Below are positions 1,347 through 37,310 of a stretch of 38,050 nt of DNA, piece after piece. The stretch covers positions 1 through 38,050 of the forward strand of contig JACRGR010000074.1 in NCBI GenBank assembly GCA_016212275.1, read 5' to 3'. The number at the start of each line of letters is the position of its first letter. The stretch's first letter is position 1. Source of the DNA: Nitrospinota bacterium (lineage in GTDB: Bacteria; Nitrospinota_A; UBA7883; JACRGQ01). Below the pieces are notes generated by a model that worked only from the letters and a program-made list of their open reading frames with translations, was not told the origin of the DNA and ran no database searches. The translations under genes and the position numbers were made by a program.

Positions 1347-1349
1347 CGG

Positions 1350-2549
1350 ATGGAAAAACCGCGCTTCTCCACCATTAAAGGGAACTCGCCGGGATACTAC
1401 GCGCTTGTGACGCTTTTGGGCGCCCTTGCGCTGGCCGGCTTCGCATCGGCGTGGTGCATGTTCTCGCAGGGGCACCACGTCACCGGGATGACCAACGCCA
1501 TCCCGTGGGGGTTTCCCATCGTGATGGCGATCTACCTCATCGGCCTCAGCGCCGGGTCGCTGGTGCTCTCGGCGCTCTCGTCCGTGTTCGGCAAGGCGGA
1601 GTTCAAGCCGTTTTCGCGCATCGCCGCGCTTTTGGCCGCCCTGCTCCTTATCGGCGCGCTGATGTGCATCATCCTCGATTGGGGAAAACCGGAACGGATA
1701 CTGATCCCGTTTTATTCCATGAACCCACGCTCCATGTTCTCGCTGAACGGAATGCTGTACTCCACCTACATCGGCATCTGCTTTGTGTACCTGTGGGCGA
1801 TGTTCAACGACAAGGAAAAGCTGGTAAAGCTCCTCGGCTTCGTGGCCGTGTTCTGGGCGGTGCTGGTGCATAGCGGCACCGGCGCCATTTTCGGTTTCGT
1901 GGGGGCGCGCGAACTGTACCACTCTCCCCTCCTGCCGCCCAGCTTCATATCCGCCGCGCTTTCGTCCGGCACGGCGCTGATGATCATCGTGCTGTACCTC
2001 ACGTTCCGCTGGACCGGCAGGACGCTGGACGAGGCGCTTTTAAAAAAGCTCGGGTTCTACCTCGCAATGTTCATCGCTGTGGTCGCGTACTTCGTGTTCA
2101 TCGAGAACGTCACGCGCTCCTACTGGCCCGCCAACTACGAAGTGCAGAAATTCCTCCTGCTCTCCGCCAACAAGTATTCGCTGGTATTTTGGCTGGGGAT
2201 GGTCGGTTGCGGACTGGTGTTCCCCTTCCTCATCTTGATCAATCCCGCCACGGGAAAGTCCATCGGCTGGATACTCGCCGCCTCCGCGCTCGTGATCATC
2301 GGCGTGCTGGCGGAGCGGTACGTTATCGTCATCCCCGGACAGGTGCTCCCGATGGAGCTGTTCCCCGGCATGACGGTGACGAGCGAATTCCAGGACGGCG
2401 TGGTGAACGATTATTCGGTGAGCCTCACGGAAGCGTTGTTCGGGCTGGGCATCGCGGGGTTTGTGTTCTTTTTGTACGTCGTGGCGCTACGGTTCTTCGA
2501 ACTGGTGCCGGAAAAGGCGGTAGCCGCGGGTGAAGAGGGCGTGAAATGA
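1350..2549 (+). CDS. dsrP: DsrP, NrfD/PsrC-family quinone-interacting membrane subunit
   Basis: The 399-residue protein is almost entirely hydrophobic, with about ten membrane segments, for example at residues 18-37, 47-67 and 84-107, matching the NrfD/PsrC/DsrP family in length and layout. It would exchange electrons between the quinone pool and the periplasmic ferredoxin DsrO. It follows dsrO by three bases. No cofactor motif is expected in this subunit. After its stop a 64-base gap with a strong GAAGGAGGG ribosome-binding site leads to the multihaem cytochrome gene, with no obvious terminator, so the cytochrome may be on the same transcript. Assignment to NrfD-like proteins is certain; the name DsrP comes from the neighbours. 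Confidence 0.9.
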   Translation: MEKPRFSTIKGNSPGYYALVTLLGALALAGFASAWCMFSQGHHVTGMTNAIPWGFPIVMAIYLIGLSAGSLVLSALSSVFGKAEFKPFSRIAALLAALLLIGALMCIILDWGKPERILIPFYSMNPRSMFSLNGMLYSTYIGICFVYLWAMFNDKEKLVKLLGFVAVFWAVLVHSGTGAIFGFVGARELYHSPLLPPSFISAALSSGTALMIIVLYLTFRWTGRTLDEALLKKLGFYLAMFIAVVAYFVFIENVTRSYWPANYEVQKFLLLSANKYSLVFWLGMVGCGLVFPFLILINPATGKSIGWILAASALVIIGVLAERYVIVIPGQVLPMELFPGMTVTSEFQDGVVNDYSVSLTEALFGLGIAGFVFFLYVVALRFFELVPEKAVAAGEEGVK

Positions 2550-2613
2550 CGGGAAGGCGAATATGGACGCCGGTTCCGTCGAAGGGGTTAAACTTTATTG
2601 AAGGAGGGCATCT

Positions 2614-4986: not shown

Positions 4987-5008
4987 GAACCGGCAGTTTG
5001 TTATTGAA

Positions 5009-5045
5009 GTGGCCGGTGGCGAATGCCGCCGGCCACCTTATTTTG
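5009..5045 (+). terminator. Rho-independent terminator after the dsr/cytochrome operon
   Basis: Arms GTGGCCGGTGGC (5009-5020) and GCCGCCGGCCAC (5025-5036) form a 12-bp stem with one G-U pair and a four-base loop, followed by the T-rich run CTTATTTTGGTTTT. It lies 23 bases after the cytochrome stop and reads in the same direction, so it likely ends the dsr transcript. Confidence 0.8.
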
Positions 5046-5069
5046 GTTTTCGGACAAGAATTAGGAAGA

Positions 5070-6455
5070 ATGATGACTGATTTAACCACTGAGACACAGA
5101 CACACGGTAGGACAGGCAATCTTGCCTGTCATTGCACCCGGTTATTTGCCGCTTCGCGGCAACGACAGACAGGATTGTCTGCCCCACCAACACTCTTTCC
5201 CCTCAGTGCCTCCGTGTCTCTGTGGCTATTCCTCACTTTTTTCACCCCGGCATACGCCCAAGCCCAAACGCCCGCGGCGAAAGTGGGCGACCGGATAATC
5301 ACGCTCGAAGAACTGCAAAAGACCATCGCCAGCACCCCCTACGGCCTGCCGGACGCACAACAGGCAAAGCCGGAGGACAAGCTGGCCATGCTCCAGATAT
5401 TGACAGGGATGATAGACGCGGAACTTCTTTACGATGAAGCGGTCGCGTTGAAGATCACCCAATCCGCATCGTATCTGGAAGATGTGCGTCTATACCGGAA
5501 CAGCTTGCTGGCAGACCGCTACCGCCAGAAACTCGCGGCGCAAGCGCAATCGGTGGATCCCGAAGAGGTGAAAAAGCTGGCAAAGGAGAAATCCGTTTCG
5601 GAATCCGCCGCAAAATCGGTTTTGGTGAACGAACGGCGGAAGATGCTGGCATCGTCCGAAACCAACCGGCTTTTCGGGAAATTCAAGGTGGAGTACTCTC
5701 CCGCCCTCGCCAAAACCGCGATTGAAAAATACAAGGACACTGACAAACTGGTGACCTCATCGGCATTCACCGTCACCTTCCGCGATGTGAAGAACCTCCT
5801 CCGCGATTCGGGCAATACCAAAAACGCATTGCTGGACATACTCGCCCAATATGTGGAGCAGGAGCTTTTCGCGGCGCAGGCCCAAGAGGACAAGCTTGGT
5901 GAACAGATAATCGCCGACATGCGCGAATATGAAAAGAACCTCGCGGTGACGATACTTCGCGGGCAGTTGGAACAGAAATTCGCCCCGTCGAAAACTGACA
6001 TTAAGAAATACCTGAAGGAGAATGACTACCTACGCCACAAGCCGCAGACCATCACCGCTCTGATGATCGTGTCAAAAACCGAGGAGGAAGCGAACGGCAT
6101 CAGGCAAAAACTCATGGCGGGCGGGAACTTCTTTGAGATCGCCTCGGAACAATCCATTGCGCCGAATGCAAACGCGAACGCCGGGCGGATTGACCCGATA
6201 TCGGTTGGCGACCGTCCCTATTCGTCAATGGACAAGGCATTGCTGGCGTTGAAACCGGGAGAAATCTCAAAACCCCTGAAAGGCGCAAAAGGCTACAGCC
6301 TCTTTAAGCTGGTGAACGTCACTCCGCGCGAGTTGAGAAACGCGGGTGAGATGAAAGAGGATGCCCGGAAAACGATCCTCAACCAAAGGCTGGCGGACCA
6401 CATTGACACACTCCGCCAATCCACGAAGGTGGAGATTTACCCGTTCAACCATTAG
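5070..6455 (+). CDS. Exported SurA/parvulin-type peptidyl-prolyl isomerase
   Basis: From the ATG at 5070 the protein has 461 residues; ATG 5073 and GTG 5213 are alternatives. A hydrophobic stretch followed by TPAYAQA gives a Sec signal peptide cut near residue 67, an unusually late position because the first ~50 residues are encoded by the inserted repeat element. The mature part has a helical SurA-like N-terminal region (EELQKTIASTPYG and following) and a parvulin domain in about the last 120 residues (TITALMIVSKTEEEANGIRQ, then FEIASEQS, then LKPGEISKPL). It would fold outer-membrane or periplasmic proteins. Sitting after the multihaem cytochrome but beyond its terminator, it may assist exported cytochromes. 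The 3' end converges on the hicB-like gene 13 bases away. Confidence 0.75.
   Translation: MMTDLTTETQTHGRTGNLACHCTRLFAASRQRQTGLSAPPTLFPLSASVSLWLFLTFFTPAYAQAQTPAAKVGDRIITLEELQKTIASTPYGLPDAQQAKPEDKLAMLQILTGMIDAELLYDEAVALKITQSASYLEDVRLYRNSLLADRYRQKLAAQAQSVDPEEVKKLAKEKSVSESAAKSVLVNERRKMLASSETNRLFGKFKVEYSPALAKTAIEKYKDTDKLVTSSAFTVTFRDVKNLLRDSGNTKNALLDILAQYVEQELFAAQAQEDKLGEQIIADMREYEKNLAVTILRGQLEQKFAPSKTDIKKYLKENDYLRHKPQTITALMIVSKTEEEANGIRQKLMAGGNFFEIASEQSIAPNANANAGRIDPISVGDRPYSSMDKALLALKPGEISKPLKGAKGYSLFKLVNVTPRELRNAGEMKEDARKTILNQRLADHIDTLRQSTKVEIYPFNH
5081..5230. mobile_element. MITE-like inverted-repeat element inside the start of the chaperone gene
   Basis: Imperfect terminal inverted repeats of about 20 bases, 5086-5105 (CCACTGAGACACAGACACAC) and 5206-5225, match at 16 of 20 positions when one is reverse-complemented. 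Between them lie three hairpins: 5111-5130 (GACAGGCAA arms), 5146-5162 (TTGCCGC arms) and 5166-5181 (CAGACA arms). No transposase is encoded, so this is a miniature, non-autonomous or REP-like element. The reading frame of the exported chaperone runs through all of it. I recall similar accacagagacacagag-type repeats in other environmental genomes, but family membership needs a genome-wide search. Confidence 0.6.
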
Positions 6456-25078: not shown

Positions 25079-25084
25079 TATAAT
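25079..25084 (+). promoter_or_regulatory. -10 box for the cyclase gene
   Basis: A perfect TATAAT 32 bases before the ATG at 25117, leaving a leader of about 25 bases with AAGGA at proper spacing. The -35 region is weak. Confidence 0.45.
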
Positions 25085-25116
25085 TGATTACCCGAATTTA
25101 TGAAGGAATGGGATTG

Positions 25117-26616
25117 ATGGACGACGCGAAAGGTAAAGATACGGATCCGACCACCTCCATCTCCGGCGATCTGGGGAGGCTTCTGGAAGAGCGTGAGCGG
25201 CTGGAGCAGATACTCCAGAAGAAATTCCAAAAGGTCATCACCGTGGTGTTCACCGATCTCAAGGGATCCACCAGCCTTGCCGACGAGCAGGGAAACCTGG
25301 CCGCCCGGCTTTTGATAAAACAGCACAACGACATCGTGTTCCCGGTCATCGAGCGCAATAGCGGCGTGCTGGTGAAAACGATGGGGGACGGCACCTTGTC
25401 ATGGTTCGCCAAAGCGCATGACGCCGTGCGCGCCGGAATGCAAATACAGGCGGAGGTGGCCGAATACAACCGCACCAAGTCCCCGAAGATACCGATCCAG
25501 ATACGCATCGGCATGCACACCGGCGAAGGGCTGGTGGAAAAGAACGATATTTTCGGGGACGTGGTGAACGTGGCGTCGCGCTTCGAATCGCAGGCCAATC
25601 CCGGCGAGGTGTACCTTTCGGAAGAGACGTACAACGCCATCGAGGACAAAGGCGAATTCCATGTTCGCTACTTGAAAAACGCCGCGCTGAAAGGCAAAAA
25701 AGAGGAATTCAGGATCTTCAAGGCGTTCTGGGATCCCGCGGAAATAGAGTCGGACAAAGCCTCCATGAAGTCCTATACGGTGGAAGAAGCGAGCACCAGC
25801 GCCATCCTCACCTCTTCCGGCTCGCACAAGTTCGCGAAAACGTCCACCCAGATAGCGGCGGAAACCGTACGCCCCACCCCCACCATCGTGATGGAAGGGG
25901 TGGACAGGCGGAAAAAGGTCATCCCGCTCACCAAGGACGTTATGGGTATCGGGCGCGCGCCCGATTCGGACATCGTGCTGGAAGAAACATACTGTTCGCG
26001 CCATCACGCGCAAATAACGCTGGAAGACGGCCAATACTACCTTGAAGACCTTGAAAGCAAGATCGGCGTATCGGTGAATGGCGAACGCATTTCCCGCCAC
26101 AAATTGAAATCCGGCGACGAGATACTATTGGGCGAGATACGGCTGACCTTCGTGGAACCGCACGAGTCCGCCAAAAGCGAGCCGGTGTTCGGCGACGCGG
26201 AAGCCACGGTGGTGATGGGCATCATGCGCTCCTTCAAGCTGGTCGTCAGACAACCAACCGGCGAACTGACGGAATACCCCATTGCCTCAGACGAGAAAAT
26301 ACTGGGAAGGCTGGACACGGCGGACGTCACGCTCAACGACAACGTAGTCTCGCGCAAGCACGCGCGGGTGTGGGCCGAGGGGGGCAAGGCGTTCATCGAA
26401 GACCTTGGCTCCCACAACGGCACTCTGGTGGATGGCACGCTCATTCCGAAGGGGGAAGCGGCGGAACTGAAAGAAAATTGCACCATCCAGATCGGGACGT
26501 TCCGCATGACCGTTTTGAACGCGCTGGACAAGGCAAGCCCTTCCCTATTCACCCCGCCCGAATCGAAAACCATCGCAGACAAGGTAAAAGGGTTCTGGGA
26601 CAAGGGGAAAAAGTAG
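25117..26616 (+). CDS. Class III nucleotide cyclase with two FHA domains
   Basis: The 499-residue soluble protein has a short coiled coil (about 17-38), a class III cyclase domain (about 39-205) and two FHA domains (about 265-340 and 370-450). Key cyclase residues are visible: metal-binding Asp47 in FTDLKGST and Asp91 in MGDGTLSW, and transition-state Asn151 and Arg155 in GDVVNVASRFES. Both FHA domains keep their phosphothreonine-loop signatures (GIGRAPDSDIVL..CSRHHAQI and LGRLDTADVTLNDNVVSRKHARV..GSHNGT). It should make cAMP or cGMP, regulated by phosphoproteins. I use ATG 25117, with AAGGA nine bases upstream. The cyclic-nucleotide-binding protein at 28188 is a candidate receiver of its product. 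cAMP versus cGMP cannot be decided. Confidence 0.92.
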   Translation: MDDAKGKDTDPTTSISGDLGRLLEERERLEQILQKKFQKVITVVFTDLKGSTSLADEQGNLAARLLIKQHNDIVFPVIERNSGVLVKTMGDGTLSWFAKAHDAVRAGMQIQAEVAEYNRTKSPKIPIQIRIGMHTGEGLVEKNDIFGDVVNVASRFESQANPGEVYLSEETYNAIEDKGEFHVRYLKNAALKGKKEEFRIFKAFWDPAEIESDKASMKSYTVEEASTSAILTSSGSHKFAKTSTQIAAETVRPTPTIVMEGVDRRKKVIPLTKDVMGIGRAPDSDIVLEETYCSRHHAQITLEDGQYYLEDLESKIGVSVNGERISRHKLKSGDEILLGEIRLTFVEPHESAKSEPVFGDAEATVVMGIMRSFKLVVRQPTGELTEYPIASDEKILGRLDTADVTLNDNVVSRKHARVWAEGGKAFIEDLGSHNGTLVDGTLIPKGEAAELKENCTIQIGTFRMTVLNALDKASPSLFTPPESKTIADKVKGFWDKGKK

Positions 26617-26624
26617 TCCGCTCC

Positions 26625-27332
26625 TTGCTGGACAATATCGGCATCGTGCTCGACCGCACCCGGCACGCGGCGAACATCGGCGCGGTCTGCCGCGTGATGA
26701 AAAACCTGGGCTTCAACCGTTTGCACCTTGTCAATCCCTCTGAATTCGGGCATCTGGCCGCCGTGCGCATGATGCAGGGCGCGGAAGACATTATGGAATC
26801 CGCCGAACCGCACGGCGCCGCGGAAGAAGCGATTGCGGAATACCATGTGGCGTTCGCCACCTCCCACCGGATGAAACAAGATGAGGCTTTGGACATCGAG
26901 ACCGCCGCGCGGAAGATTGCCGCGTTGGCCCGGAAAAACAGAGTTGCGGTACTGTTCGGTTCGGAAAAATTCGGCCTTGCCCGCGAAGATGCCGACCGGT
27001 GCCAATACGTCATCCGGCTCCCGGTGGAGCCGGGATTTCCCTCGGCAAACCTGGCGCAAGCGGTGACGATGGTTTGCCTGGAAATCCGGCTGGCCGCCAC
27101 GCGACGTAAAGCCGGGGCGGCGAGGACGCCCAAAGTAAGTCTTACGCTGGCGCAACGGAAGAGGTTTCAGGATGACCTGTTCGGACTGTTCGCCCAAATC
27201 GGGATGAAGGAACCGGCGGTGAAAAAGAAGATAAAGTCCGTGTTCGACCGCGCGAACATGACGGAACGGGAAATGAACCTTTTTTTCGGTTTGTTCAAGA
27301 AAATGCGACGCGCCCTCGCGGACAAACGGTGA
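26625..27332 (+). CDS. trmJ: TrmJ-like tRNA 2'-O-methyltransferase (SPOUT family)
   Basis: About 235 residues from a probable TTG at 26625, eight bases after the cyclase stop; no ATG fits the family start. N-terminal NIGIVLDRTRHAANIGAVCRVMKNLGF is the TrmH-group opening with Asn-Gly substrate residues, and the knot motifs follow as VAVLFGSEKFGLAREDADRC and FPSANLAQAVTMVCLEIRLA. The C-terminal extension ends in helices typical of TrmJ. Such enzymes methylate the ribose at tRNA position 32. Context is neutral, although a tRNA-Pro gene lies 51 bases downstream. The start codon is the weak point; the family is clear, but subgroup TrmJ versus another TrmH-type methylase is moderately sure. Confidence 0.85.
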   Translation: MLDNIGIVLDRTRHAANIGAVCRVMKNLGFNRLHLVNPSEFGHLAAVRMMQGAEDIMESAEPHGAAEEAIAEYHVAFATSHRMKQDEALDIETAARKIAALARKNRVAVLFGSEKFGLAREDADRCQYVIRLPVEPGFPSANLAQAVTMVCLEIRLAATRRKAGAARTPKVSLTLAQRKRFQDDLFGLFAQIGMKEPAVKKKIKSVFDRANMTEREMNLFFGLFKKMRRALADKR

Positions 27333-27383
27333 AATTTGTCCTATCGCCCCCCACAACTATTGTATGATTGTCCTTTCCGTGTC

Positions 27384-27460
27384 CGGGGTGTAGCGCAGCT
27401 GGCTAGCGCACCTGCTTTGGGAGCAGGGGGTCGCCAGTTCGAATCTGGCCACCCCGACCA
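27384..27460 (+). tRNA. tRNA-Pro (TGG anticodon)
   Basis: A complete 77-base cloverleaf: acceptor CGGGGTG pairs with CACCCCG, D arm AGCGCAGC..., anticodon stem CCTGC/GCAGG around loop TTTGGGA giving anticodon TGG, T arm with GTTCGAATC, discriminator A and an encoded CCA. The unusual C1-G72 pair is typical of bacterial proline tRNA. TATGAT at 27363-27368 is a plausible -10 box. Confidence 0.97.
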
Positions 27461-27608
27461 TTTATCCCCTTTCCCCGAATTATTCACCATTGGCCTAAAA
27501 TTCGTGGATAATACACTAAGGAGGAGACAACACAACGGGATAACGCCAACAGCGGACTCCTATACCACTCTCCCCGGATAGGGGTTCCGAAGCATCAAGG
27601 AGGATCCC

Positions 27609-28082
27609 ATGTCAGCTAAAAAAACCAACAAGGTACTTGAATACCTGCAATCCCTCCATACCGCCGAGATTGGGGCGATGGGCATCTACATGGATCAACA
27701 CGTTCGCTGTTCCAACGTCGGCCTTTCCAAATTGGCCGCAATGCTCAAAGATGACGCGGCGGAGGAAATGCATCACGCGGAAGAAGTGGCGGAACGGATC
27801 CTTTTCCTTGGCGGCTCGCTCCAATACGGGAAACACGATATCCCCAAGACGGGGCCGCTTGATCTGCCGGAAATGCTGAAACTCGACGTTGAAGTGGAAA
27901 AATACGCCATCATGCAACTCAACGGCGGGATACGGATATGCGCCGATGAGGCCGACAACGGCACTCGCCTTCTCCTTGAACACATTCTCAAGGAAGAGGA
28001 AGCGCATTTGAAAGACTATGAGACGATGCTCAACCATGTGGGAAAATATGGAGATACTTACATAGTCCAACACCTGTTATAA
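27609..28082 (+). CDS. bfr: Bacterioferritin
   Basis: A 157-residue four-helix ferritin-like protein. All ferroxidase ligands align with bacterioferritin: Glu20, Glu53, His56, Glu97, Glu130 and His133. Met54, directly after Glu53, occupies the place of the haem-ligating methionine of Bfr, so inter-subunit haem is expected. Bfr stores iron as a 24-mer in the cytoplasm and detoxifies Fe(II) with peroxide or oxygen, useful to a cytochrome-rich cell meeting oxygen. AGGAGG lies before the ATG. No clear Fur box is seen in the preceding 148-base gap, which contains a possible TTCACC/GATAAT promoter near 27483-27512 and a small CCCC/GGGG hairpin. A hairpin follows the stop. Confidence 0.93.
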   Translation: MSAKKTNKVLEYLQSLHTAEIGAMGIYMDQHVRCSNVGLSKLAAMLKDDAAEEMHHAEEVAERILFLGGSLQYGKHDIPKTGPLDLPEMLKLDVEVEKYAIMQLNGGIRICADEADNGTRLLLEHILKEEEAHLKDYETMLNHVGKYGDTYIVQHLL

Positions 28083-28086
28083 GCTA

Positions 28087-28129
28087 CCGTGGCCATTTGT
28101 CCCCCTATTTCCGGGGGGCAATTCCACGG
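28087..28129 (+). terminator. Two-part hairpin after bfr (terminator-like, no T-run)
   Basis: Outer arms CCGTGG (28087-28092) and CCACGG (28124-28129) flank an inner 9-bp stem, TTGTCCCCC (28097-28105) with GGGGGGCAA (28113-28121), one pair being G-U. No T-run follows, so it may protect the bfr mRNA end or slow transcription rather than terminate it. It lies five bases after the bfr stop. Confidence 0.5.
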
Positions 28130-28187
28130 GGATTTGCGGTATCATGGCGGGACTTACTTTATTTGCCAATACGTTCGGGGAGGAGCA

Positions 28188-29135
28188 ATGGCGGAGAAAA
28201 AGGGCAATTCAAACATAATCCTTGTGGCGGACATCAGCCCCACCGTGCGGCGGCTCATGCGCGGCTATTTAAAGGACGATTACGAGGTCTGCGAAGCGGA
28301 AAGCGGCAAGGAAGTGCTGTCGGTCTTGGCGGAGCGCCATGCCTGCGACTCGCACTGCGTAAAGGACGCGAAGGCCGGCGGCAACGCATCGCTGATGCCG
28401 GTCCTCAACGATTCCTGCGGCGCGAAAAACATCCTCGCCATCGTCATGGGGGGAGAACTGCCGGACGGGAGCGCCTTCGACCTGACCGCGAAGATCCGTA
28501 AGAAATACCACCCGAAATGCCTACCGGTGATCATCAGCACCTCGCACAACGACCGCGAGACGATCATCGAAGCGCTGGATAAAGGGGCAAACGACATCAT
28601 AGTTAAACCGTTCCCCCGCGAACTCATCCTCTCGAAACTCCGCAAGCTGGAGCACGAGATACCGCTTCAGGACCTTCAACTCAGCGAACCGGTGGCGAAG
28701 ATTCCGTTCTTCGCCGGGGTGCCGGTGGCGCAGGTGGCGTACATCCTGAACACCTGCTCACAAACGCTGGACAAGGAGAAAGGCGACATCATCTGCGAGC
28801 AAGACGACACCAACCTCGACCTGTTCATACTGGTGGAAGGAAAATGCAGTGTGGTGTTCAATAAACGGAAAGTGGCCGACATCACGCCGATAGACACCAT
28901 CGGCGAAATGGGGTTCGTGGCGAACACCAAACGCTCGGCAACGGTGATTGCGGCGGCCCCGTCGAAAGTCATCGTCATCAACAAAAAGAAGTTCGAGGAG
29001 TACCTCAACGAGGAGCGGGCGATATCCGAAATGATACTCAAGAACATCGTGCTGTCGCTCAACGATCGGATTCGGAAATCGAACGCGCTTATCAACCGGT
29101 TAAAGGTGGTCGCCGAAGAGTACCTGGGAGAGTGA
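28188..29135 (+). CDS. Pseudo-receiver plus cyclic-nucleotide-binding domain protein
   Basis: The 315-residue protein has a receiver-like fold (about 8-165) and a cyclic-nucleotide-binding domain (about 185-290) ending in a helical tail. The receiver is degenerate: the acidic pair is reduced (ADIS instead of DDS) and the phospho-acceptor position reads IVMGGELPDG, Gly in place of Asp, while Lys of IIVKPF remains. A 30-residue insert between the second and third structural blocks holds Cys53, Cys57 and Cys77. The cNMP domain keeps a phosphate-cassette-like GEMGFVANTKRSATV with its Arg. GGGGAGGAG precedes the chosen ATG. It sits convergent to cheA, 18 bases apart, and near the cyclase gene, so it may link cyclic nucleotide to the chemosensory array. 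Function inferred. Confidence 0.8.
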   Translation: MAEKKGNSNIILVADISPTVRRLMRGYLKDDYEVCEAESGKEVLSVLAERHACDSHCVKDAKAGGNASLMPVLNDSCGAKNILAIVMGGELPDGSAFDLTAKIRKKYHPKCLPVIISTSHNDRETIIEALDKGANDIIVKPFPRELILSKLRKLEHEIPLQDLQLSEPVAKIPFFAGVPVAQVAYILNTCSQTLDKEKGDIICEQDDTNLDLFILVEGKCSVVFNKRKVADITPIDTIGEMGFVANTKRSATVIAAAPSKVIVINKKKFEEYLNEERAISEMILKNIVLSLNDRIRKSNALINRLKVVAEEYLGE

Positions 29136-29153: not shown

Positions 29154-31376
29154 CTATTCCGCTTCCGGCATTACCTCGATGAGGGACTGCACGGTGGCCA
29201 ACAGGTTGGACTGGTCGAAACTCCCCTTGATGATGTAGGCGTTCGCCCCGGCCTGCATGCCGCGGCGCTTGTCTTCCTCTTTGTCGCGCGAACTGACGAT
29301 GATCACGGGGGTGTGCCGGTAGAGTTGCTCTTTCCTCAGTTTTTCGGTGAGCGTGAAGCCGTCCATGCGCGGCATTTCCACGTCCGTCACCACGAGGTCG
29401 TATTTGAACCCTTGCGCCTTCTCGTAACCGTTCAGGCCGTCGGTCGCCACGTCCACCTGGTAACCGTAAGACTCCAGGATGCTCCGCTCGATCTCCCGCG
29501 TGTTCACCGAGTCGTCCACCACCAGGATATGGATGGGACGTTCATGGACACGCTCTTCCTTCACCCGCGACGGTGCGGATATCTCGCGCGCCATGCCGAA
29601 CGCCTTTGAGACGTTCAACACTATGACGATGTCGTTTTTCCCGGTGATGGAAACGCCGGATATGAGGCCGGAACTGCGAAGGTGGCGCGGCAACGGCTTG
29701 ATCTCCATGTCTTCCTCGCTGATGAGCGAATCCACCACCAACCCCAGTTCCTCATTCCCCATCTGGAGCATGGCCAGTTGGACGCTGTCATTGCTCCGGT
29801 ATTCCTTCGGGGGAAGCCCCAGAAGGCCCCGCAGGTCCACAACGGGTATGAGCCGCTCCCGCAGGCGCACCGCCTTTTTGTCCACCACGTCTATCATGTC
29901 GCCGTGCTTGATCTTCAGCACTTCGGTGATGGAGCTGACCATGATGCCCACGATAACGTCCGAAACCGAAACCAGGAACATCCGCATGATGGCCAGTGTC
30001 AGCGGAAGCCGGATACGGAAGGCGGTCCCCTTCCCCGCCTCAGTTTTCACCTGGATGGAGCCTTTGAGCTGTTCAACGATATTTTCCTTCACCACGTCCA
30101 TGCCCACCCCGCGCCCGGATATGTCGGTGATGAACGCGCTTGTGGAAAAGCCGGGCCGGAATATCAGATTCAGCAACTGCTGTTCGGTCATCCGCTCAAG
30201 TTCTTCCTCGGTGTGAAGCCGTTTTTGGATCGCCTTTTCCTTCACTTTGTCCAGCGGAATCCCCCCGCCATCGTCCGCAACCTCGATGAAAGCGCTTCCC
30301 CCCTCGTATCCAGCCGTGATCCGTATGGCTCCGGTCTCCGGTTTGCCCGTCGATATACGCTCTTCCGGAATTTCGATACCGTGATCAACGCTGTTGCGCA
30401 CCATGTGCAATAGCGCGTCGCCGATCTTTTCAATTATTTTTTTGTCCATTTCCGTGTCCGCGCCGGAAACGCCGAGTTCGGCCTTTTTTCCGCAGGAGGC
30501 CGCGATGTCGCGCACATAGCGGGGAAATGAGTCCAGCGTGGTGGAGAGCGGGAGCATTCTCATGCGCGACACTTTTTCCAATAGTTCGTCCATTAAAAGA
30601 CTATGGTAGATAAGGTCGTTCTTATAGTTCATGTGGAACTGTTTCACCTGCAGGAAAATATGTTGGGCCATTTCCAGCCCTTCCGGGCCGGAAGCGGCCC
30701 CCTCCGCCTCCGCCAGCGCATCCATGTGGCGGCCAGACTCCTTCCGTAGGTTCTCCACGAAAGCGAGGTGTTGCTTAAGGCGGCTTTGGTTTGAAACCAT
30801 TTCACCCATGATCTTAATGGCGTCGTCCAGTTTTTCGGTATCAACGCGCACGGTCTCGATATTCCGCAAGACCGGCGATTTTACGGCGGGAGCGCCAACT
30901 GTCGGGAGCGGGGCCGAAGGCGGTTCCGGCTCGGATGATACCGGGGGCGCCGGGACCTCCGCGGTTTCCGGTTCCTTGTCCGGCATTAGGTTCCCTTTCG
31001 AGGCCATTTCCAGGATCCGGACGATCTCGCTGATGTCACCAATGTTTTCCCCGCCGCTTTTTATCACCTCGATCATCCCCGCGATCACATCGAGTCCCTG
31101 GAAAATCGCGTCGTAAAAAGCCCGCGAAGTCTTGATCTTCCCGTTCTTGAGCGCTTCCAACGCATCTTCCAGCTTGTGGGACACTTCCCCTATCTGGTTC
31201 AGCCCCAGCATCCGCGCCGACCCCTTGATGGTGTGGGCGGCGCGGAAAATATCGTTGAGCGTTTCCTGTTCCACGGCGCCTTTTTCCATGGCCAAAAATC
31301 CGTCGCTGATCTTTTTCAGGTGCTCGCGCGCCTCGGCGGCATAACTGGCGATGTATTTCGTTTTGTCGATCTTCAT
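29154..31376 (-). CDS. cheA: CheA histidine kinase fused to a C-terminal receiver
   Basis: The 740-residue protein starts at 31376, overlapping the cheR stop (ATGA). Domains in order: Hpt with His48 in FRAAHTIKGSARMLG; a linker without recognisable P2; dimerisation region (about 190-270); HATPase with MVRNSVDHGIEIPEER, DDGGGIPLDKVK and GRGVGMDVVKENI; a CheW-like domain (about 465-600); and a receiver (about 615-740) with phospho-acceptor Asp in VVTDVEMPRMDG and Lys in YIIKGSF. CheA-receiver fusions are common in non-flagellar chemosensory systems, such as Frz- and Chp-like ones. As no CheY is in the window, the fused receiver may be the output or a phosphate sink. The CheA identity is certain; the pathway is not. 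Confidence 0.95.
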   Translation of the reverse strand: MKIDKTKYIASYAAEAREHLKKISDGFLAMEKGAVEQETLNDIFRAAHTIKGSARMLGLNQIGEVSHKLEDALEALKNGKIKTSRAFYDAIFQGLDVIAGMIEVIKSGGENIGDISEIVRILEMASKGNLMPDKEPETAEVPAPPVSSEPEPPSAPLPTVGAPAVKSPVLRNIETVRVDTEKLDDAIKIMGEMVSNQSRLKQHLAFVENLRKESGRHMDALAEAEGAASGPEGLEMAQHIFLQVKQFHMNYKNDLIYHSLLMDELLEKVSRMRMLPLSTTLDSFPRYVRDIAASCGKKAELGVSGADTEMDKKIIEKIGDALLHMVRNSVDHGIEIPEERISTGKPETGAIRITAGYEGGSAFIEVADDGGGIPLDKVKEKAIQKRLHTEEELERMTEQQLLNLIFRPGFSTSAFITDISGRGVGMDVVKENIVEQLKGSIQVKTEAGKGTAFRIRLPLTLAIMRMFLVSVSDVIVGIMVSSITEVLKIKHGDMIDVVDKKAVRLRERLIPVVDLRGLLGLPPKEYRSNDSVQLAMLQMGNEELGLVVDSLISEEDMEIKPLPRHLRSSGLISGVSITGKNDIVIVLNVSKAFGMAREISAPSRVKEERVHERPIHILVVDDSVNTREIERSILESYGYQVDVATDGLNGYEKAQGFKYDLVVTDVEMPRMDGFTLTEKLRKEQLYRHTPVIIVSSRDKEEDKRRGMQAGANAYIIKGSFDQSNLLATVQSLIEVMPEAE

Positions 31377-32875
31377 GCCGAATGGACCGCCTTTCCGGCC
31401 ATCCGGCGCAACTTGTCCATATTGTGCCTGCATAAATGGATCAACTGGTCGACCGGGAACGAAAGCGGGAAATACGTCAGGCCGTGGTCTTCCATGCCAT
31501 GCTTTTCCAGAAGGCGCACCGCGACCCCATATTCTCCGTAAGCGCCCGAGTGATCCCCTTGGGCGAAGTAAATGTCGGCAAGGTAAAAGTGGGCGAGCCA
31601 GCAGGAAGAGCGGATGTACAGCGCCCCTTTGAATTTGGCGAGCGCCTCGTCCATTTTGTCTTCCACTTTGGCGATGATGCCGAGGAGCAGGTAGCCTTCC
31701 AGGTTCCATTCGTCCAACGCCATGATGCGCCGGCACATTTCCCGCGCCGCGTCCAATTCCTGCCGGTTGATGAGCACGCTCGCCTTAAGGGAATACGCTT
31801 TTATGAACGCGGGGTCTTTTTCCAACAGCGCATCCACTTTTTCGATCACCGGTGCGTACTCCTTGCGCATGGCGCATGCAAGCGCCTCGTCAAACAGCTC
31901 GCGCACATCCTGCCGCGCGCGCTTTTCGACGTACTTGGCCGAAGGCTGAACCGCCGCCACCGGCGTGGGGATGGCGCTTTTCACACGCGGCGCGAAAGGC
32001 GGAGTTGAAATGGGCGGTATCGTCTTGGACGCCGGATGGTATTTCCGGCGGTCATCGAACTCCATTTCCACTTTCTTCTTGTACACGAAGACGTCGCCAT
32101 ACTCTTTCAGGAACAGGATGCCGATGTTGTGGAAGTAAGTCTCCGCGGAGCTTAAAAACAGGAATCCTTCGGGGTTCAGTATTTCCGAGAGACGCTGGAA
32201 AATGAGTTTTTGCACTTCCCCCGCAAAATAGATCGAAACATTCCGGTAAAAGATGATGTCGATGTTTTTCAGGAAATCGGGATACGGATGAGTGAGCAGG
32301 TTGAATACCTGGAACTCCACCCCTTCCTTGAGGTAAGGGACCAGTTCAAAACGCTTATCCTTGGCGTGAACCACATATTTTTTCAACAGGGCATCGTCGC
32401 TCCTGAACGACTTGTTGCCGAAAATCCCCTCTTGGGCCATTCTGATGGCGTTGCGGTCGATATCCACCCCGATGATGGAGACGCGGTTGCGGATACCCAT
32501 GCCGTACTTTTCAGTGAGCGCGAGGAGAATGGAGTACGCCTCTTCGCCGGTGGAGCATCCGGCGCTGAGAATCCGCACCTTTTCGCTCCCGCGCTTGCGG
32601 TCGAGCATTTCCGGCATCACCGTATCCACCAAGAGCTTGAAATGCCGCGGTTCCCTGAGGAAATATGTCTCATTGATGGTGATGAGTTCAATGAGCCTGT
32701 CCATTTCCTCCTGATCGTTGCGGAGCATTTGGAGGTATATTTCGTTCGAGGCGGCCTTCAGGTCGCTCATCCGTTTCTGGAGCGACACTTCAAGCGTATA
32801 GGAGGAATCGTTCCGAAACGTAAAGCCGCACCGATCCTTGATGAGCGATTTGAAGGCTTCGAGCGTCAATTCCAT
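31373..32875 (-). CDS. cheR: CheR methyltransferase with C-terminal TPR region
   Basis: A 500-residue protein. The first ~275 residues are a full CheR: N-terminal helical domain (MELTLEAFKSLIKDRCGF), SAM-binding GxG-like motif in ILSAGCSTGEEAYSILLAL, acidic residue in GVDIDRNAIRMAQEG, and FYRNVSIYFAGEVQ. After a Pro/Ala linker a TPR-type region (about 330-480: ARQDVRELFDEALACAMRKEYAPVIEKVDALLEKDP...) follows, as in CheR-TPR proteins of alternative chemosensory systems such as FrzF. It methylates glutamates on the MCP encoded upstream. The start at 32875 has AAGGA five bases ahead. It lies between cheB (13-base gap) and cheA. Confidence 0.93.
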   Translation of the reverse strand: MELTLEAFKSLIKDRCGFTFRNDSSYTLEVSLQKRMSDLKAASNEIYLQMLRNDQEEMDRLIELITINETYFLREPRHFKLLVDTVMPEMLDRKRGSEKVRILSAGCSTGEEAYSILLALTEKYGMGIRNRVSIIGVDIDRNAIRMAQEGIFGNKSFRSDDALLKKYVVHAKDKRFELVPYLKEGVEFQVFNLLTHPYPDFLKNIDIIFYRNVSIYFAGEVQKLIFQRLSEILNPEGFLFLSSAETYFHNIGILFLKEYGDVFVYKKKVEMEFDDRRKYHPASKTIPPISTPPFAPRVKSAIPTPVAAVQPSAKYVEKRARQDVRELFDEALACAMRKEYAPVIEKVDALLEKDPAFIKAYSLKASVLINRQELDAAREMCRRIMALDEWNLEGYLLLGIIAKVEDKMDEALAKFKGALYIRSSCWLAHFYLADIYFAQGDHSGAYGEYGVAVRLLEKHGMEDHGLTYFPLSFPVDQLIHLCRHNMDKLRRMAGKAVHSA

Positions 32876-32888
32876 TTTATCCTTACCG

Positions 32889-33941
32889 TTAATTGGGGGT
32901 CGCCAAATGCCGCAATGCCCCGCCAATATCCCCCAGTGGCAACACACGGTCCACGCAACCGCTATTGATCGCCACGTTTGGCATTCCGAAAACCGAGGAA
33001 GTGGCCTCGTCCTGCGCGATGGTCATCCCGCCGCGTTCGTGTATCCTGCGCAAACCCTCCACGCCGTCGTCTCCCATCCCCGTCAGTATCACCCCGGCGC
33101 ATCCGGCGCCATACGCATCCCCCGCGGATTGCAGAAGGCGGTTGCATGAAGGATGGAAAATATCTTCGCGCGCCCGCTCCACAAGGGAAACCCTGCGCGT
33201 TGGGGAAACGGCGAGATGGAATCCGGCCGGGGCGAAATAGGCCGTATTGGCCCGCAACATTTCGCCCGTTTGCGCCAGCTTCACGTTTAACGAAGAGACG
33301 CCATCGAGCCACTCCACCAGCCCCGCGATAAACCCGTCGTCCATGTGCTGGGCCACCAGTATCGGCACCGGAAATCCGCCGTCGAGGTCGGAGAAGATTT
33401 GTGAAAGCGCTTTCGGTCCCCCGGTGGAACTGGCGATGGCAACCGCCCGCACCTGTTTTTCGGCAACCGGAACAGGCGCTACCGGCGGAGCTGGCGGAGC
33501 TAATGGGGCCAATACCGCCGCCACGCCCCTGTCCTTTTTCAATTGAAGGTGCCGGATGACCTTTACCTTTGCCAACAGTTTCACTTTGGCGATGAAATCC
33601 GCACCCTGCCCCATCGTCAAAAACGATTTTTGTTGCACGTCCAAGGCCCCCTTGGAAAGCGCGGCGAACGCCACCTTCGAATGGTCCAGATCCGTGACCA
33701 CCATGATCGGCCTTGGGTTATTCGCCATGATACGCTCGATGGCTTCCAGACCGTTCATCACCGGCATATTGATGTCCATGGTGATGATATCCGGTTGAAG
33801 GGTTTTGGCGCGTTCAACCGCTTCCAGACCGTTGCTGGCGGTTCCCACCACCCGCAGGTCGTGGTCGGAGGAGAAAATATCCTTCAACAGGTCTTGCACC
33901 GTGGCGCTGTCGTCGACTATAAGCACTTTTACTTCCGCCAT
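32889..33941 (-). CDS. cheB: CheB methylesterase with receiver domain
   Basis: A 350-residue protein with a receiver (1-125; DDS at 10-12, phospho-acceptor Asp56 in TMDINMPVMNG), a Pro/Ala-rich linker (about 145-170: LAPLAPPAPPVAPVPV) and a CheB esterase domain showing catalytic Ser in AIASSTGGPKAL, His in LVAQHMDDGF and Asp in TGMGDDGVEGL. It removes methyl groups from the MCP to reset adaptation. No ribosome-binding sequence precedes the ATG at 33941; instead a promoter-like TTGATT/TAATGT pair ends 7 bases before it, so cheBRA may have a separate leaderless transcript. It stands 82 bases after the MCP gene. Confidence 0.94.
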   Translation of the reverse strand: MAEVKVLIVDDSATVQDLLKDIFSSDHDLRVVGTASNGLEAVERAKTLQPDIITMDINMPVMNGLEAIERIMANNPRPIMVVTDLDHSKVAFAALSKGALDVQQKSFLTMGQGADFIAKVKLLAKVKVIRHLQLKKDRGVAAVLAPLAPPAPPVAPVPVAEKQVRAVAIASSTGGPKALSQIFSDLDGGFPVPILVAQHMDDGFIAGLVEWLDGVSSLNVKLAQTGEMLRANTAYFAPAGFHLAVSPTRRVSLVERAREDIFHPSCNRLLQSAGDAYGAGCAGVILTGMGDDGVEGLRRIHERGGMTIAQDEATSSVFGMPNVAINSGCVDRVLPLGDIGGALRHLATPN

Positions 33942-33948
33942 TCTTATC

Positions 33949-33978
33949 ACATTAGATGCCCCGCACCGCAAAAATCAA
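33949..33978 (-). promoter_or_regulatory. Sigma-70-like promoter for cheBRA, possibly leaderless
   Basis: Minus-strand TTGATT (33973-33978) and TAATGT (33949-33954) are 18 bases apart, and the -10 hexamer ends seven bases before the cheB ATG, which lacks a Shine-Dalgarno sequence. The two facts together suggest transcription starting at the start codon. Confidence 0.45.
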
Positions 33979-34023
33979 GTAGCACGGTAGCTTTTCTCCC
34001 GCAACGCCCTGTTTATTTACCTT

Positions 34024-35643
34024 TTAGGCACTACCATGACCGTTCGTGGAAATTTTGAAGACCTCTAACCGGTCCTTCAGGTCGTCCGACATGCTCTTGA
34101 GATTGATGGTTGCCGTCGAAGTCTGCTTGATGGACGCGGACGACTGGTGCAATCCCTGGTCAATCTCGGTAAGGGCGGTAAGCACCTGGCTGGAAGCGGT
34201 TTTTTGCTGTTGGGTGGAAAGCGATATTTGCATGGCCGATTCCGAAGCGGTTTTCGCCCCATCCACGATACGCATGAGTTCGTCCAAGGTGCCGGAGGCC
34301 GCTTGGGACCCGTCGTTGATGGCTTTCGACCCTTTTTCCGAAGCGATGACGAGCCGGTTGATGGCTTTTTGTATCTCCTCAATCTTGCTTTCGATCTCTC
34401 CGGTGGACTCCATCACGTTGTCCGCCAGCCGCCGAATTTCAACCGCCACCACGCTAAAGCGCTTGCCCGCCTCGCCGGAACTGGACGCTTCGATGGCCGC
34501 GTTGAAGGCTATCATCTTCGTTTGGTCGGCGATGTCGTTGATGATGCCCATGATCTTGCCAATCTCTTTCGATTTCCGGTCGAGGTCCAATATTTCGTTT
34601 ATGTTCTTGTTGTTGTCGGCGGTGATCTCGTCCATCTTTTCCTTGAGCCGGTTGAGCGCCACGACCCCCCGTTCGGATTCGCTTAGAGTGTTCTTGGAGG
34701 TGGAGGCCACGGCGTTTGCGTTATCCGCTATCTGCGACGAGGAAACGGAAAGCTCCTCCATCGTAGCCGTGATCTCGGTGAGCGACGCGGATTGCTGGGC
34801 CGTGATTGCCGCCTGCTCTTCCACCGAGGCGGCGATGTCGTTGGCCGAACCGTTCACTTTGTCCGTCATTCCCGATGCGTTGGCTATCACCCGTTCCAGG
34901 GATTCGATGTGGTGGTTGAACCGCTCCGCCAGGTCGCCGATCTCGTTCCTCGCGTTCACATTCACGCGGTAGCCCAGGTCGAGCGAGGAGGTGAACTCGC
35001 TGACCTGCCCCACGATGTCGAGTATCGGCCGGGAAATGCGGTTGCCCGCGATGACGGCGATGACCAAGGCCACCCCCATGGCGATAACGAATACGCCAAG
35101 CAGTTGCTTTACGACCATCATGCCCACGCCATCGAGCGCCTTGGCGGAGAAGATCGCATGCACGTCGCCGCCGTTCTTTACCTGCAGATCGCGGTGAATG
35201 AGCAAGGCCATCTTGCGTTCTTCAACATGGGTATTGTTGCCGGTGAAGCCTTCCATCATCTTGATAATGTCGGCATGGTCATCCACCGAGAACACGGGGT
35301 TAACGTATGTATACTCGATTTTCGCGGGGGGTATTTCTTCGGAATAATCGGTCTTTGGCGAACCCGCGCTCATCCCCTCCATTTTGAGGAACAGCAGGTC
35401 GGGGTTCGTCTTGTACAGGTCCAGGGCGGCGGTATTTTGCAGATTCATCAAATTGCCGCCATTCACGTTGCGGGTGGCGAGGGTGGTGATGGGCGCAAGC
35501 GATATTTCGCTTTTCTCGATAATGTGCGCCCGACGCGCGCTCACCTCGTTGAAATACTGGATCAACCCCGTGGCCGCCAACGCGAACAGCGTCACGCCGA
35601 CGATCGCCACCATTATTTCCATCCGAACACTGTTCAATCTCAC
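34024..35643 (-). CDS. Methyl-accepting chemotaxis protein with short periplasmic domain
   Basis: With the GTG at 35643 (GGGGGGA just before) this is a 539-residue receptor: first membrane helix about 9-27, an extracytoplasmic domain of about 150 residues, second helix about 181-202, HAMP (about 203-255) and a coiled-coil signalling domain. ATG 35622 or 35667 are alternatives. The hairpin tip is IADQTKMIAFNAAIEASSSGEAGKRFSVVAVEIRRLAD, a variant of the usual QTNLLALNAAIEAARAGE. The tip contacts CheA and CheW, so the change likely matches the special CheA/CheW proteins of this cluster. The sensor domain has no recognised Cache signature I can assert. The P460-like cytochrome gene just upstream is a candidate ligand partner. 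Confidence 0.93.
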   Translation of the reverse strand: MRLNSVRMEIMVAIVGVTLFALAATGLIQYFNEVSARRAHIIEKSEISLAPITTLATRNVNGGNLMNLQNTAALDLYKTNPDLLFLKMEGMSAGSPKTDYSEEIPPAKIEYTYVNPVFSVDDHADIIKMMEGFTGNNTHVEERKMALLIHRDLQVKNGGDVHAIFSAKALDGVGMMVVKQLLGVFVIAMGVALVIAVIAGNRISRPILDIVGQVSEFTSSLDLGYRVNVNARNEIGDLAERFNHHIESLERVIANASGMTDKVNGSANDIAASVEEQAAITAQQSASLTEITATMEELSVSSSQIADNANAVASTSKNTLSESERGVVALNRLKEKMDEITADNNKNINEILDLDRKSKEIGKIMGIINDIADQTKMIAFNAAIEASSSGEAGKRFSVVAVEIRRLADNVMESTGEIESKIEEIQKAINRLVIASEKGSKAINDGSQAASGTLDELMRIVDGAKTASESAMQISLSTQQQKTASSQVLTALTEIDQGLHQSSASIKQTSTATINLKSMSDDLKDRLEVFKISTNGHGSA

Positions 35644-35670
35644 GATTCCCCCCGTGGCTTTAAGCATTGC

Positions 35671-35692
35671 GGGCGGCGAATGACCGCCGCCC
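35671..35692 (-). repeat. Perfect 8-bp GC hairpin between the P460-like gene and the MCP gene
   Basis: Arms GGGCGGCG (35671-35678) and CGCCGCCC (35685-35692) with a six-base loop, in the 63-base gap between the two genes. No T-run follows on the minus strand, so it more likely stabilises the upstream mRNA or sets relative expression than terminates. Confidence 0.55.
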
Positions 35693-35706
35693 ACGCGCCC
35701 ATCAAA

Positions 35707-36228
35707 TTACTTGGATATCTTGCCGCATTGGCCGTCCACGCAGAACGCCGCGTAACCGGTATGACAGGTTTTGCAGGTCTCGATAGCCAACGGGCCGCTG
35801 GCGGCGGAAATGTCCTTGCCGTCCTCGGTAAATATCCCGTACTGGGCCTTGCCCCCTTTATGCGAGGTGACGAACAACACCTTCATATCCTGCAAGTGGA
35901 GGATGAGGTTCGAACCGTCCTTGAATTTCCCTTTGCGCGCCTCATATCCGGCTTTGGATGCCGGGTTTACCAGAACCGCAACCTTGCCCGGTCCGCCCTG
36001 CCGCACCGCGCAATAGGTCGCAACCGTTTCCTGGTAGATCGGAGGCAGGGTGCTCACGTTCGCTTCGCACCCCGGCAGTGCGCCAATTTTGGTGAGCGTG
36101 GTGGAAAGGCTGTCCCACTTTTTCCAATCCGCGGGGAACTGCCCCTCCGAGGCGGCAATCGCCCCTCCGGCAAAAATGCCGACCGCCATCAAAGATGTCA
36201 CCGCCAATGTTAGAATCCGGTTCACCAT
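35707..36228 (-). CDS. Exported cytochrome P460-like c-type haem protein
   Basis: The 173-residue precursor has a Sec signal peptide (cut near AIAA, residue 26). The mature protein shows a cytochrome P460-like pattern: FPADWKKWDSLS at the start, NPASKAGYEARKGKFKDGSNLILHLQ in the middle, then TCKTCHTGYAAFCVDGQC at the end with haem motif C152-K-T-C155-H156. Extra cysteines lie at 54, 73, 163 and 168. Classical P460 proteins oxidise hydroxylamine or bind NO with a Lys-crosslinked haem; the crosslinking Lys cannot be chosen here. AGGAGAG precedes ATG 36228. Its place between cheW-like and MCP genes suggests a periplasmic sensor or ligand-handling partner of the receptor. P460 membership is likely but should be checked by profile search. 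Confidence 0.7.
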   Translation of the reverse strand: MVNRILTLAVTSLMAVGIFAGGAIAASEGQFPADWKKWDSLSTTLTKIGALPGCEANVSTLPPIYQETVATYCAVRQGGPGKVAVLVNPASKAGYEARKGKFKDGSNLILHLQDMKVLFVTSHKGGKAQYGIFTEDGKDISAASGPLAIETCKTCHTGYAAFCVDGQCGKISK

Positions 36229-36305
36229 AGTTCTCTCCTTTTTCCATATATTGCCGTTCGGCCTTGGCGCCACAAGACCCCTTCCCAACCAACTAAAAAA
36301 AGCAT

Positions 36306-36785
36306 TCAGTTGCCCACCAGCGCTCCCCCTCCCCGCAAGGCGCGGTAGATCGGAATTTTATAAATGTCCGCGATGAAAACCATCCCGTTATTCAACAGCG
36401 CCGCTCCCCAAAAACCGGTGGCATGCGCATGTTTCCGGACCACCGGCGGCAGGGGCCGGATGTTTTCCACGGGCACATCCACAATATCTTCCGGCGTTTC
36501 CACCACGATGCCGATGCGCTTCCCGCTCACACCGCTTTGGCCGTCCCCCGGCAAAGGCTTCACAAATACCACCTTTGGCGTTGAACAATTGTATGACTCT
36601 TCGCCCATGCCGAACAACTCGTTGATAGTCACAAGGCAACTCTCATGTACATCCACCCTGCCGAAGTCGGTCATTCCTTCCATCTGGTCGGTATCGAACC
36701 CTATCGCCGTGCCGTCCATCCGGAACACCAAAAGCCGAATGCTTTTAATTGGCCGTTTTAACTCCAGTACCGCCGTGGATTCCAT
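36306..36785 (-). CDS. Divergent CheW-like coupling protein
   Basis: A 159-residue protein with the overall CheW pattern in weaker form: RLLVFRMDGTAIGFDTDQMEGM at the start, a central RIGIVVETPEDIVDVPVENIRPLP segment and a C-terminal LLNNGMVFIADIYKI. The strongly conserved strand and glycine segments of typical CheW (GvinlRG) are missing, replaced by TINELFGMGEESYN. It follows cheW by three bases and precedes the P460-like gene after 77 bases. It may be a second adaptor with altered contacts for the variant MCP tip, or a regulator of the array. The family assignment is good; the exact role is inference. Confidence 0.8.
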   Translation of the reverse strand: MESTAVLELKRPIKSIRLLVFRMDGTAIGFDTDQMEGMTDFGRVDVHESCLVTINELFGMGEESYNCSTPKVVFVKPLPGDGQSGVSGKRIGIVVETPEDIVDVPVENIRPLPPVVRKHAHATGFWGAALLNNGMVFIADIYKIPIYRALRGGGALVGN

Positions 36786-36788
36786 GCG

Positions 36789-37310
36789 TCACTCCGCCGC
36801 CAGCCGCTCGAACATCTTTCCCACATCCAGCATGGTGACCGATTTGCCTCCATGTTCCGTTTCACCGCTCACATAGTGTTTGATTCGCTCGTCCAGCGTG
36901 GAAAGCGAGGGCTGGATGGCCCTCACCGGCACATCCACCACGTCTTCCACGGAGCCGACCACCAGGCCGGATCGCACGCCGTTCTTCTCCGCGATGATCA
37001 CCTGTTTCTTTGCGGTCTCCTTCCCCTGAGGCAGTCCCAAAAACCGGGCCAGATCAATGACCGACTCCACGTCGCCACGCACGTTGATAACGCCGAGAAG
37101 GTACTCGGGGCAACCGGGGATGCGCGTTATCTTGCCCGGTTCCAGCACCTCTTTTGCGTCGGAGCCGGGGATGGCGTACACACCGCCCCCAATCGTGAAA
37201 ACGATGATTTGAGTCTTTTCTTCCTCAACGTCGACGATCTGCGCGTCGTCCGCGCGTTGGCTTATCTGCGCCAGCACTTCATCGCTTTTCGATTCTACCG
37301 GGACATCCAT
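36789..37310 (-). CDS. cheW: CheW coupling protein
   Basis: A 173-residue CheW with an acidic 30-residue N-terminal extension (MDVPVESKSDEVLAQISQRA). Core features: QIIVFTIGGGVYAIPGSDAKEVL, TRIPGCPEYLLGVINVRGDVESVIDLARFLGL, and VGSVEDVVDVPVRAIQPSL. It bridges the MCP and CheA. AGAGGG lies before the ATG. As first gene of the minus-strand cluster it is probably where the transcript begins, with a promoter-like pair and leader hairpin upstream. Neighbour order is cheW, cheW-like, P460-like, MCP, cheB, cheR, cheA. Confidence 0.94.
   Translation of the reverse strand: MDVPVESKSDEVLAQISQRADDAQIVDVEEEKTQIIVFTIGGGVYAIPGSDAKEVLEPGKITRIPGCPEYLLGVINVRGDVESVIDLARFLGLPQGKETAKKQVIIAEKNGVRSGLVVGSVEDVVDVPVRAIQPSLSTLDERIKHYVSGETEHGGKSVTMLDVGKMFERLAAE

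Follow-up and report, generated by a model that had tools for sequence, protein, structure and literature searches.

A stretch of DNA from a Nitrospinota bacterium, referred to here as the window, is an entire contig (C56) of 38,050 bases in a host genome of 2.19 Mb that is 83% complete. It carries a chemosensory cluster of seven genes, all on the minus strand. A Pfam scan found them in the order cheW (cheW1), a divergent cheW (cheW2), a c-type cytochrome, a methyl-accepting chemotaxis protein (MCP), cheB, cheR with tetratricopeptide repeats (cheR-TPR), and cheA with a receiver domain (cheA-REC). An earlier sequence-only reading of this DNA had proposed the same order, and the scan supports it, with the cytochrome below the cut-off of its family. 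The cytochrome and the adjacent chemoreceptor are an authentic conserved two-gene module that occurs in several phyla. Loci in which the module lies within a che operon like that of the window are referred to below as operon type, and loci with the two genes only as pair-only.

Only short gaps separate the genes of the cluster, and the sequence shows a 4-base overlap (ATGA) of cheR with cheA. The start of cheA is most likely at 31376, not at 31736. The 28 open reading frames scanned in the window include no motility gene and no stand-alone CheY, in agreement with the earlier reading. WspR (REC-GGDEF) was not found among them either; the contig stops at 38050, 740 bp upstream of cheW1, so the upstream surroundings of the cluster in the host are mostly unseen.

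Table 1. Features of the chemosensory cluster and the nearest candidate output gene in the window
Feature	Position	Strand	Basis
cheW1, CheW coupling protein	36789..37310	-	PF01584 E 3.1e-33; homologue at the same position in 7 other operon-type loci
cheW2, divergent CheW	36306..36785	-	PF01584 E 9.4e-6, residues 51-144 of 159; homologues at the same position in 7 other operon-type loci
c-type cytochrome, P460/c'-beta fold (predicted), predicted secreted, 173 aa	35707..36228	-	
CXXCH haem-attachment motif (CKTCH)	35761..35775	-	Direct reading; both Cys and the His invariant, 51/51
MCP chemoreceptor: transmembrane (TM) segment, Cache-type ectodomain, TM, HAMP, signalling domain	34024..35643	-	PF00672 and PF00015; GTG start chosen, GGGGGGA upstream
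MCP ectodomain, predicted single Cache fold, without haem motif	35119..35538	-	AlphaFold2 model; structural matches
Receptor hairpin tip, altered, KMIAFNAAIEASSS	34477..34518	-	Tip pattern comparison
CheB (REC and methylesterase)	32889..33941	-	PF00072; PF01339 E 1.9e-57
CheR methyltransferase, C-terminal TPRs	31373..32875	-	PF01739 E 5.5e-44; TPR matches
CheA kinase, C-terminal receiver	29154..31376	-	Hpt, H-kinase_dim, HATPase_c, CheW, Response_reg
REC and cyclic-nucleotide-binding protein, candidate output	28089..29135	+	PF00072 E 3.1e-15, PF00027 E 1.2e-14; start codon uncertain

Pairing of the cytochrome and the receptor across genomes

Genomes were searched using the cytochrome family alone (alignment A1), and 44 loci were obtained. 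An MCP gene with a window-like ectodomain adjoined the cytochrome gene on the same strand, at a distance of at most 240 bp, in 41 of these loci. The cytochrome gene came first in 38 of them and second in three (L030, L038, and L042). Two of the unpaired loci (L047 and L067) lie at contig ends, and the genome of L067 has the ectodomain on another contig, in two pieces. In the third (L033), the cytochrome is adjoined by a different sensor gene. The module was found in hosts labelled Nitrospinota, Pseudomonadota, Nitrospirota, Campylobacterota, Acidobacteriota, Bdellovibrionota, and Myxococcota. The hosts are metagenome bins and some labels are perhaps wrong; L049, labelled Acidobacteriota, groups within gammaproteobacterial sequences.

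The reverse search used a profile of the ectodomain (A3). It matched 3 of 24 Nitrospinota genomes, which are the three with a close cytochrome. In the order of a Gallionella it matched 1 of 399 genomes, the query genome itself, and in the family of that Gallionella 2 of 158, both already known. Of 398 genomes in the order of a Sulfurimonas, 10 were matched, six strongly (E <= 4e-59) and four weakly and partially (E 1e-4 to 6e-4). The cytochrome gene lies beside all six strong matches, two of them in genomes new to the analysis, and beside none of the four weak ones. The Gallionella-order and Sulfurimonas-order scans scored no more than seven candidates in each genome, so receptors may be missed there. 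Two of 24 genomes matched in the order of a further host (G092); one was already known, and the match in the other was weak (E 7e-8). No cytochrome was seen at the weak match, which sits at a contig start with its upstream side missing. Within the cytochrome set, the ectodomain was matched in 40 of 42 genomes, mostly once, and 30 of the 30 loci returned from these genomes contain the cytochrome, which is partly so by construction.

As a control, 15 distant paralogues of the cytochrome (33-42% identity, 60 relatives) had no such receptor in the flanking 2.1-3.5 kb. These findings bear out the expectation that the cytochrome belongs with the receptor. The cytochrome gene was not missing from relatives found by the cytochrome or by strong ectodomain matches; a search for cytochrome-less clusters starting from cheA or cheW was not made.

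Do the two proteins vary together? Pairwise distances of cytochromes and ectodomains correlated at 0.73 over 39 loci, and the partial correlation given the signalling domain was 0.49. None of 2000 permutations reached either observed value. Cytochrome and signalling-domain distances were also correlated (0.67). The co-variation is consistent with a specific partnership and also with joint inheritance or transfer.

Several individual loci depart from the common layout. At L033 (9971-11096), the gene after the cytochrome orthologue encodes a truncated protein that has a histidine-kinase sensor domain (PF21623), and a different type of sensor may have re-used the cytochrome here. Two tandem MCPs with this ectodomain lie behind a single cytochrome gene at L068 (10504-14198), and the MCP reading frames of L062 and L105 (G093) contain an in-frame TGA, which may stem from an error or from decay of the gene. 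The distant cytochrome paralogues (L012-L026) occur in 13 of 24 Nitrospinota genomes, and two of them (L014 and L018) look membrane-anchored.

Predicted properties of the cytochrome and the receptor

The window cytochrome scored 16.7-17.2 bits against PF16694, under the curated cut-off of 27. PF16694 was matched at E <= 0.01 in 34 of 51 relatives (best 9.7e-6), and precomputed annotation gives it for 4 among 120 listed of 318 relatives. A structure model predicts the beta-sheet fold of the P460/c'-beta superfamily; the structural matches came from a second-look aligner only, and Foldseek returned nothing at E <= 0.001 (best E 0.36). Sequence identity to solved c'-beta chains is 13-22%, and when the PDB was searched by sequence, the family profile reached E values of 0.8-1. 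A mixed profile that included the distant paralogues picked up nine ribosomal bL31 chains and CuvA (E 0.03-0.24) via the CxxCH stretch, and these were taken as chance matches.

A CXXCH motif lies near the C-terminus in 51 of 51 cytochromes, and a covalent c-haem is predicted from it. Two further Cys residues are invariant (C54 and C73), and two are present in 49 of 51 sequences (C163 and C168). P460 enzymes oxidise hydroxylamine, according to passages of PMC11928373, and Table 2 of that paper separates cytochromes c'-beta as having the P460 fold without the Lys cross-link. In the window family, by a weak alignment, the position of the cross-linking Lys is Leu110 in 51 of 51 sequences, and that of the distal carboxylate is Gly in 35, Ser in 7, Ala in 5, and Asn in 4. 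Thus, judged from the model and the alignment, the cytochrome resembles gas-binding c'-beta proteins, of which McCP-beta, TtCP-beta, and NeCP-beta are known, rather than P460 enzymes. The earlier reading had proposed sensing of nitric oxide (NO), hydroxylamine, oxygen, or redox state. Hydroxylamine chemistry is unlikely because Leu and Gly, Ser, Ala, or Asn sit at the Lys and carboxylate positions of P460, and for the same reason NO or another diatomic is the likelier ligand.

The ectodomain of the receptor was modelled by AlphaFold2 with a pLDDT of 93, and the predicted Cache fold has structural matches to WalK, LuxQ, and PctD. Ten residues are invariant across 42 ectodomain sequences, and GxNxM and NGG motifs contain such residues. 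Could the receptor carry the haem itself? CXXCH is absent from the ectodomain, and 40 of 42 sequences have no Cys at all in the scored stretch, the other two having one. A receptor-borne haem was rejected because of the absence of CXXCH.

The receptor also differs between the two kinds of locus at the tip of its signalling hairpin. The tip reads K[ML]IAFNAAIEA[AS]S, without the usual Arg, in all seven operon-type genomes with a visible receptor, the window included. A standard tip was found in 31 of 31 pair-only loci matched by the pattern (29 of the 44 loci, together with L106 and L107); nine loci were unmatched, three of which have no such receptor. Such a tip would suit an insulated array. 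Among the 14 MCPs of the host, 11 have a standard tip, two an altered tip, and one has no clear call. The second altered tip belongs to a receptor on contig C80 (L130:2401-5196, G000), which has a different ectodomain and a secreted-looking neighbour of 241 aa without a Pfam match. This receptor may share an insulated array with the window receptor.

Two wirings and their candidate outputs

The order cheW-cheW2-cytochrome is repeated in seven loci besides the window, and the MCP comes next in six of them. Because of this recurrence, the arrangement is not a product of chance. The operon continues with MCP, cheB, cheR, and cheA in L027, L028, L029, L032, and L034, with cheR of L029 split over two frames. 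It is cut off after the receptor in L031 and after the cytochrome in L047. In 35 of the 41 paired loci, cheW, cheB, cheR, and cheA gave no match at the thresholds used; some flanks are short.

Operon type is used here as the name of a type or group, not of a clade, because the trees do not show a single origin. It needs two label changes on the cytochrome tree and four on the ectodomain tree, and it falls on one side of a branch in 2% and 0% of bootstrap trees, respectively. The well-supported branches are compatible with one origin. The operon type with its altered tip suggests an insulated, Wsp-like pathway.

The relatives differ in their likely output gene. A REC-GAF-HD-GYP gene lies directly upstream of cheW in L027, L031, and L032 (two Gallionella genomes and one Methylococcaceae), and its product is, by its domains, presumably a cyclic-di-GMP phosphodiesterase. 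In L028, a cNMP-binding GGDEF protein is encoded upstream of the operon, and HDOD and REC-SpoIIE genes lie downstream of it. A single REC (CheY-like) gene stands beside the operon upstream in L029, where it is frameshifted in the record, and downstream in L034. In the window, the output is possibly the REC-cNMP-binding protein, the nearest candidate, whose gene is convergent with cheA at a distance of 18 bp.

The earlier reading had allowed that a CheY and flagellar or pilus genes just outside the window would make this an ordinary motility system. Single REC genes stand beside the operon in the two relatives named above, and the host does have a fliG, on another contig (C53). An ordinary role in flagellar chemotaxis of the host was set aside because that fliG is accompanied on C53 by two other cheA, one cheB, and one cheR. 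A flagellar output through the host fliG, or a pilus output in view of seven T2SSE-type ATPase matches in the host genome, is possible for the window cluster.

The REC-cNMP-binding gene, which the sequence-only reading omitted together with the adenylate cyclase beyond it, is the last of a row on the plus strand beside the cluster (25084-29135). This row consists of an adenylate cyclase with FHA domains (25084-26616), a SpoU-type rRNA methyltransferase, a ferritin-like protein, and the REC-cNMP-binding protein. The cyclase and the cNMP-binding protein may be functionally linked. At the other end of the window (609-6452, plus strand), an Fe-S protein, NrfD, a large multihaem MtrC/MtrF-like cytochrome, and then a PPIase resemble an electron-transfer module.

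Proposed mechanism and comparison with known systems

How might the pair work? The best reading, at about an even chance, is that the cytochrome is a periplasmic NO-binding partner that docks on the Cache ectodomain of the receptor to alter CheA activity. The predicted secreted cytochrome would bind NO in the periplasm and dock on the ectodomain in the manner of LuxP on LuxQ, and docking would change the activity of CheA. We infer the ligand, the manner of docking, and the direction of the CheA response. In pair-only loci, the receptor with its standard tip would signal into the common chemotaxis array. The operon-type receptor with its altered tip, together with its own CheW, a second CheW, CheA-REC, CheB, and CheR-TPR, would drive a separate pathway. 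In other words, a detachable c'-beta would be the NO-binding subunit of a multi-phylum family of Cache chemoreceptors, one group of which gained a private insulated array that steers second-messenger outputs, not flagella. This broader proposal is tentative and falls somewhat short of an even chance.

The same cytochrome could instead be a redox or oxygen probe, whose haem trades electrons with the respiratory chain or reacts with O2 while the receptor reads the redox state. c-type cytochromes are redox-active, the four conserved Cys residues could be so too, and the hosts include Gallionella and Sulfurimonas, which inhabit redox boundaries. However, the predicted P460/c'-beta fold and the Leu in place of the Lys are in line with gas-binding members, and the probe is rather unlikely. 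It is improbable that the cytochrome is an enzyme that detoxifies NO or hydroxylamine and is merely co-expressed with the receptor, outside sensing. Hydroxylamine oxidation is known for P460 enzymes (passages of PMC11928373), but the required Lys and carboxylate are absent in 51 of 51 sequences by the weak alignment, and mere co-expression does not account for an almost universal pairing, in several phyla, with a single kind of ectodomain. A cytochrome gene inserted by chance into an ordinary Wsp-like operon for alternative cellular functions (ACF) would account for a chassis of CheA-REC, CheR-TPR, CheB, and two CheW, and CheR-TPR and multidomain regulators mark such systems in passages of PMC3447774. 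This is very improbable, given the many paired loci in which the pair stands without the other che genes.

If the docking model is true, gas detection by a chemoreceptor through a separate haem subunit would be unfamiliar. It would add a route of extracytoplasmic NO sensing in which the haem subunit is portable between shared chemotaxis arrays and operons dedicated to signalling. Passages of the superfamily review leave the physiological roles of cytochromes c'-beta open, and for one branch a receptor partner would suggest a function that can be tested. Since the two genes are small, lie side by side, and mostly occur in single copy, binding and complex formation can be tested directly.

The claim of the earlier reading that no such system has been described holds for the cytochrome-receptor pair, which is new in the literature searched, mostly outside subscription papers; no account of such a pair was found there. 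The 2025 review of the superfamily contains neither "chemo" nor "methyl-accepting" and hence names no receptor partner. The sections covered of an aerotaxis review (PMC13401364) name no such cytochrome partner, and in the portions covered of literature joining P460 with methyl-accepting chemotaxis, the sole P460 passage found concerns hydroxylamine oxidoreductase.

The claim does not hold for the chassis, which is already known and is Wsp/ACF-like. CheA-REC and two CheW also belong to Wsp, and the Wsp gene order is unlike that of the window cluster. The cluster has the CheR-TPR that characterizes the ACF class, and multidomain response regulators stand beside the operon in several relatives. 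Unlike in Wsp/ACF systems, a cytochrome forms part of the unit.

The proposed docking recalls LuxP-LuxQ, in which a periplasmic binding protein docks on a Cache-type receptor. In the window, a cytochrome takes the place of the solute-binding protein, and an MCP that of the histidine kinase as the output. Some MCPs, such as Geobacter GSU0582 and GSU0935 and Desulfovibrio DcrA, use a c-type haem of their own for sensing; there the haem is in the receptor itself. The closest printed idea found, in passages of PMC12889525, is sCache_heme (DUF3365/Tll0287), NO-binding Cache domains with a c-type haem within the domain. Both that system and the one proposed here would use a c-type haem for extracytoplasmic NO sensing by Cache-type receptors, whereas the window haem is predicted to lie on a separate protein, with no CXXCH in the ectodomain.
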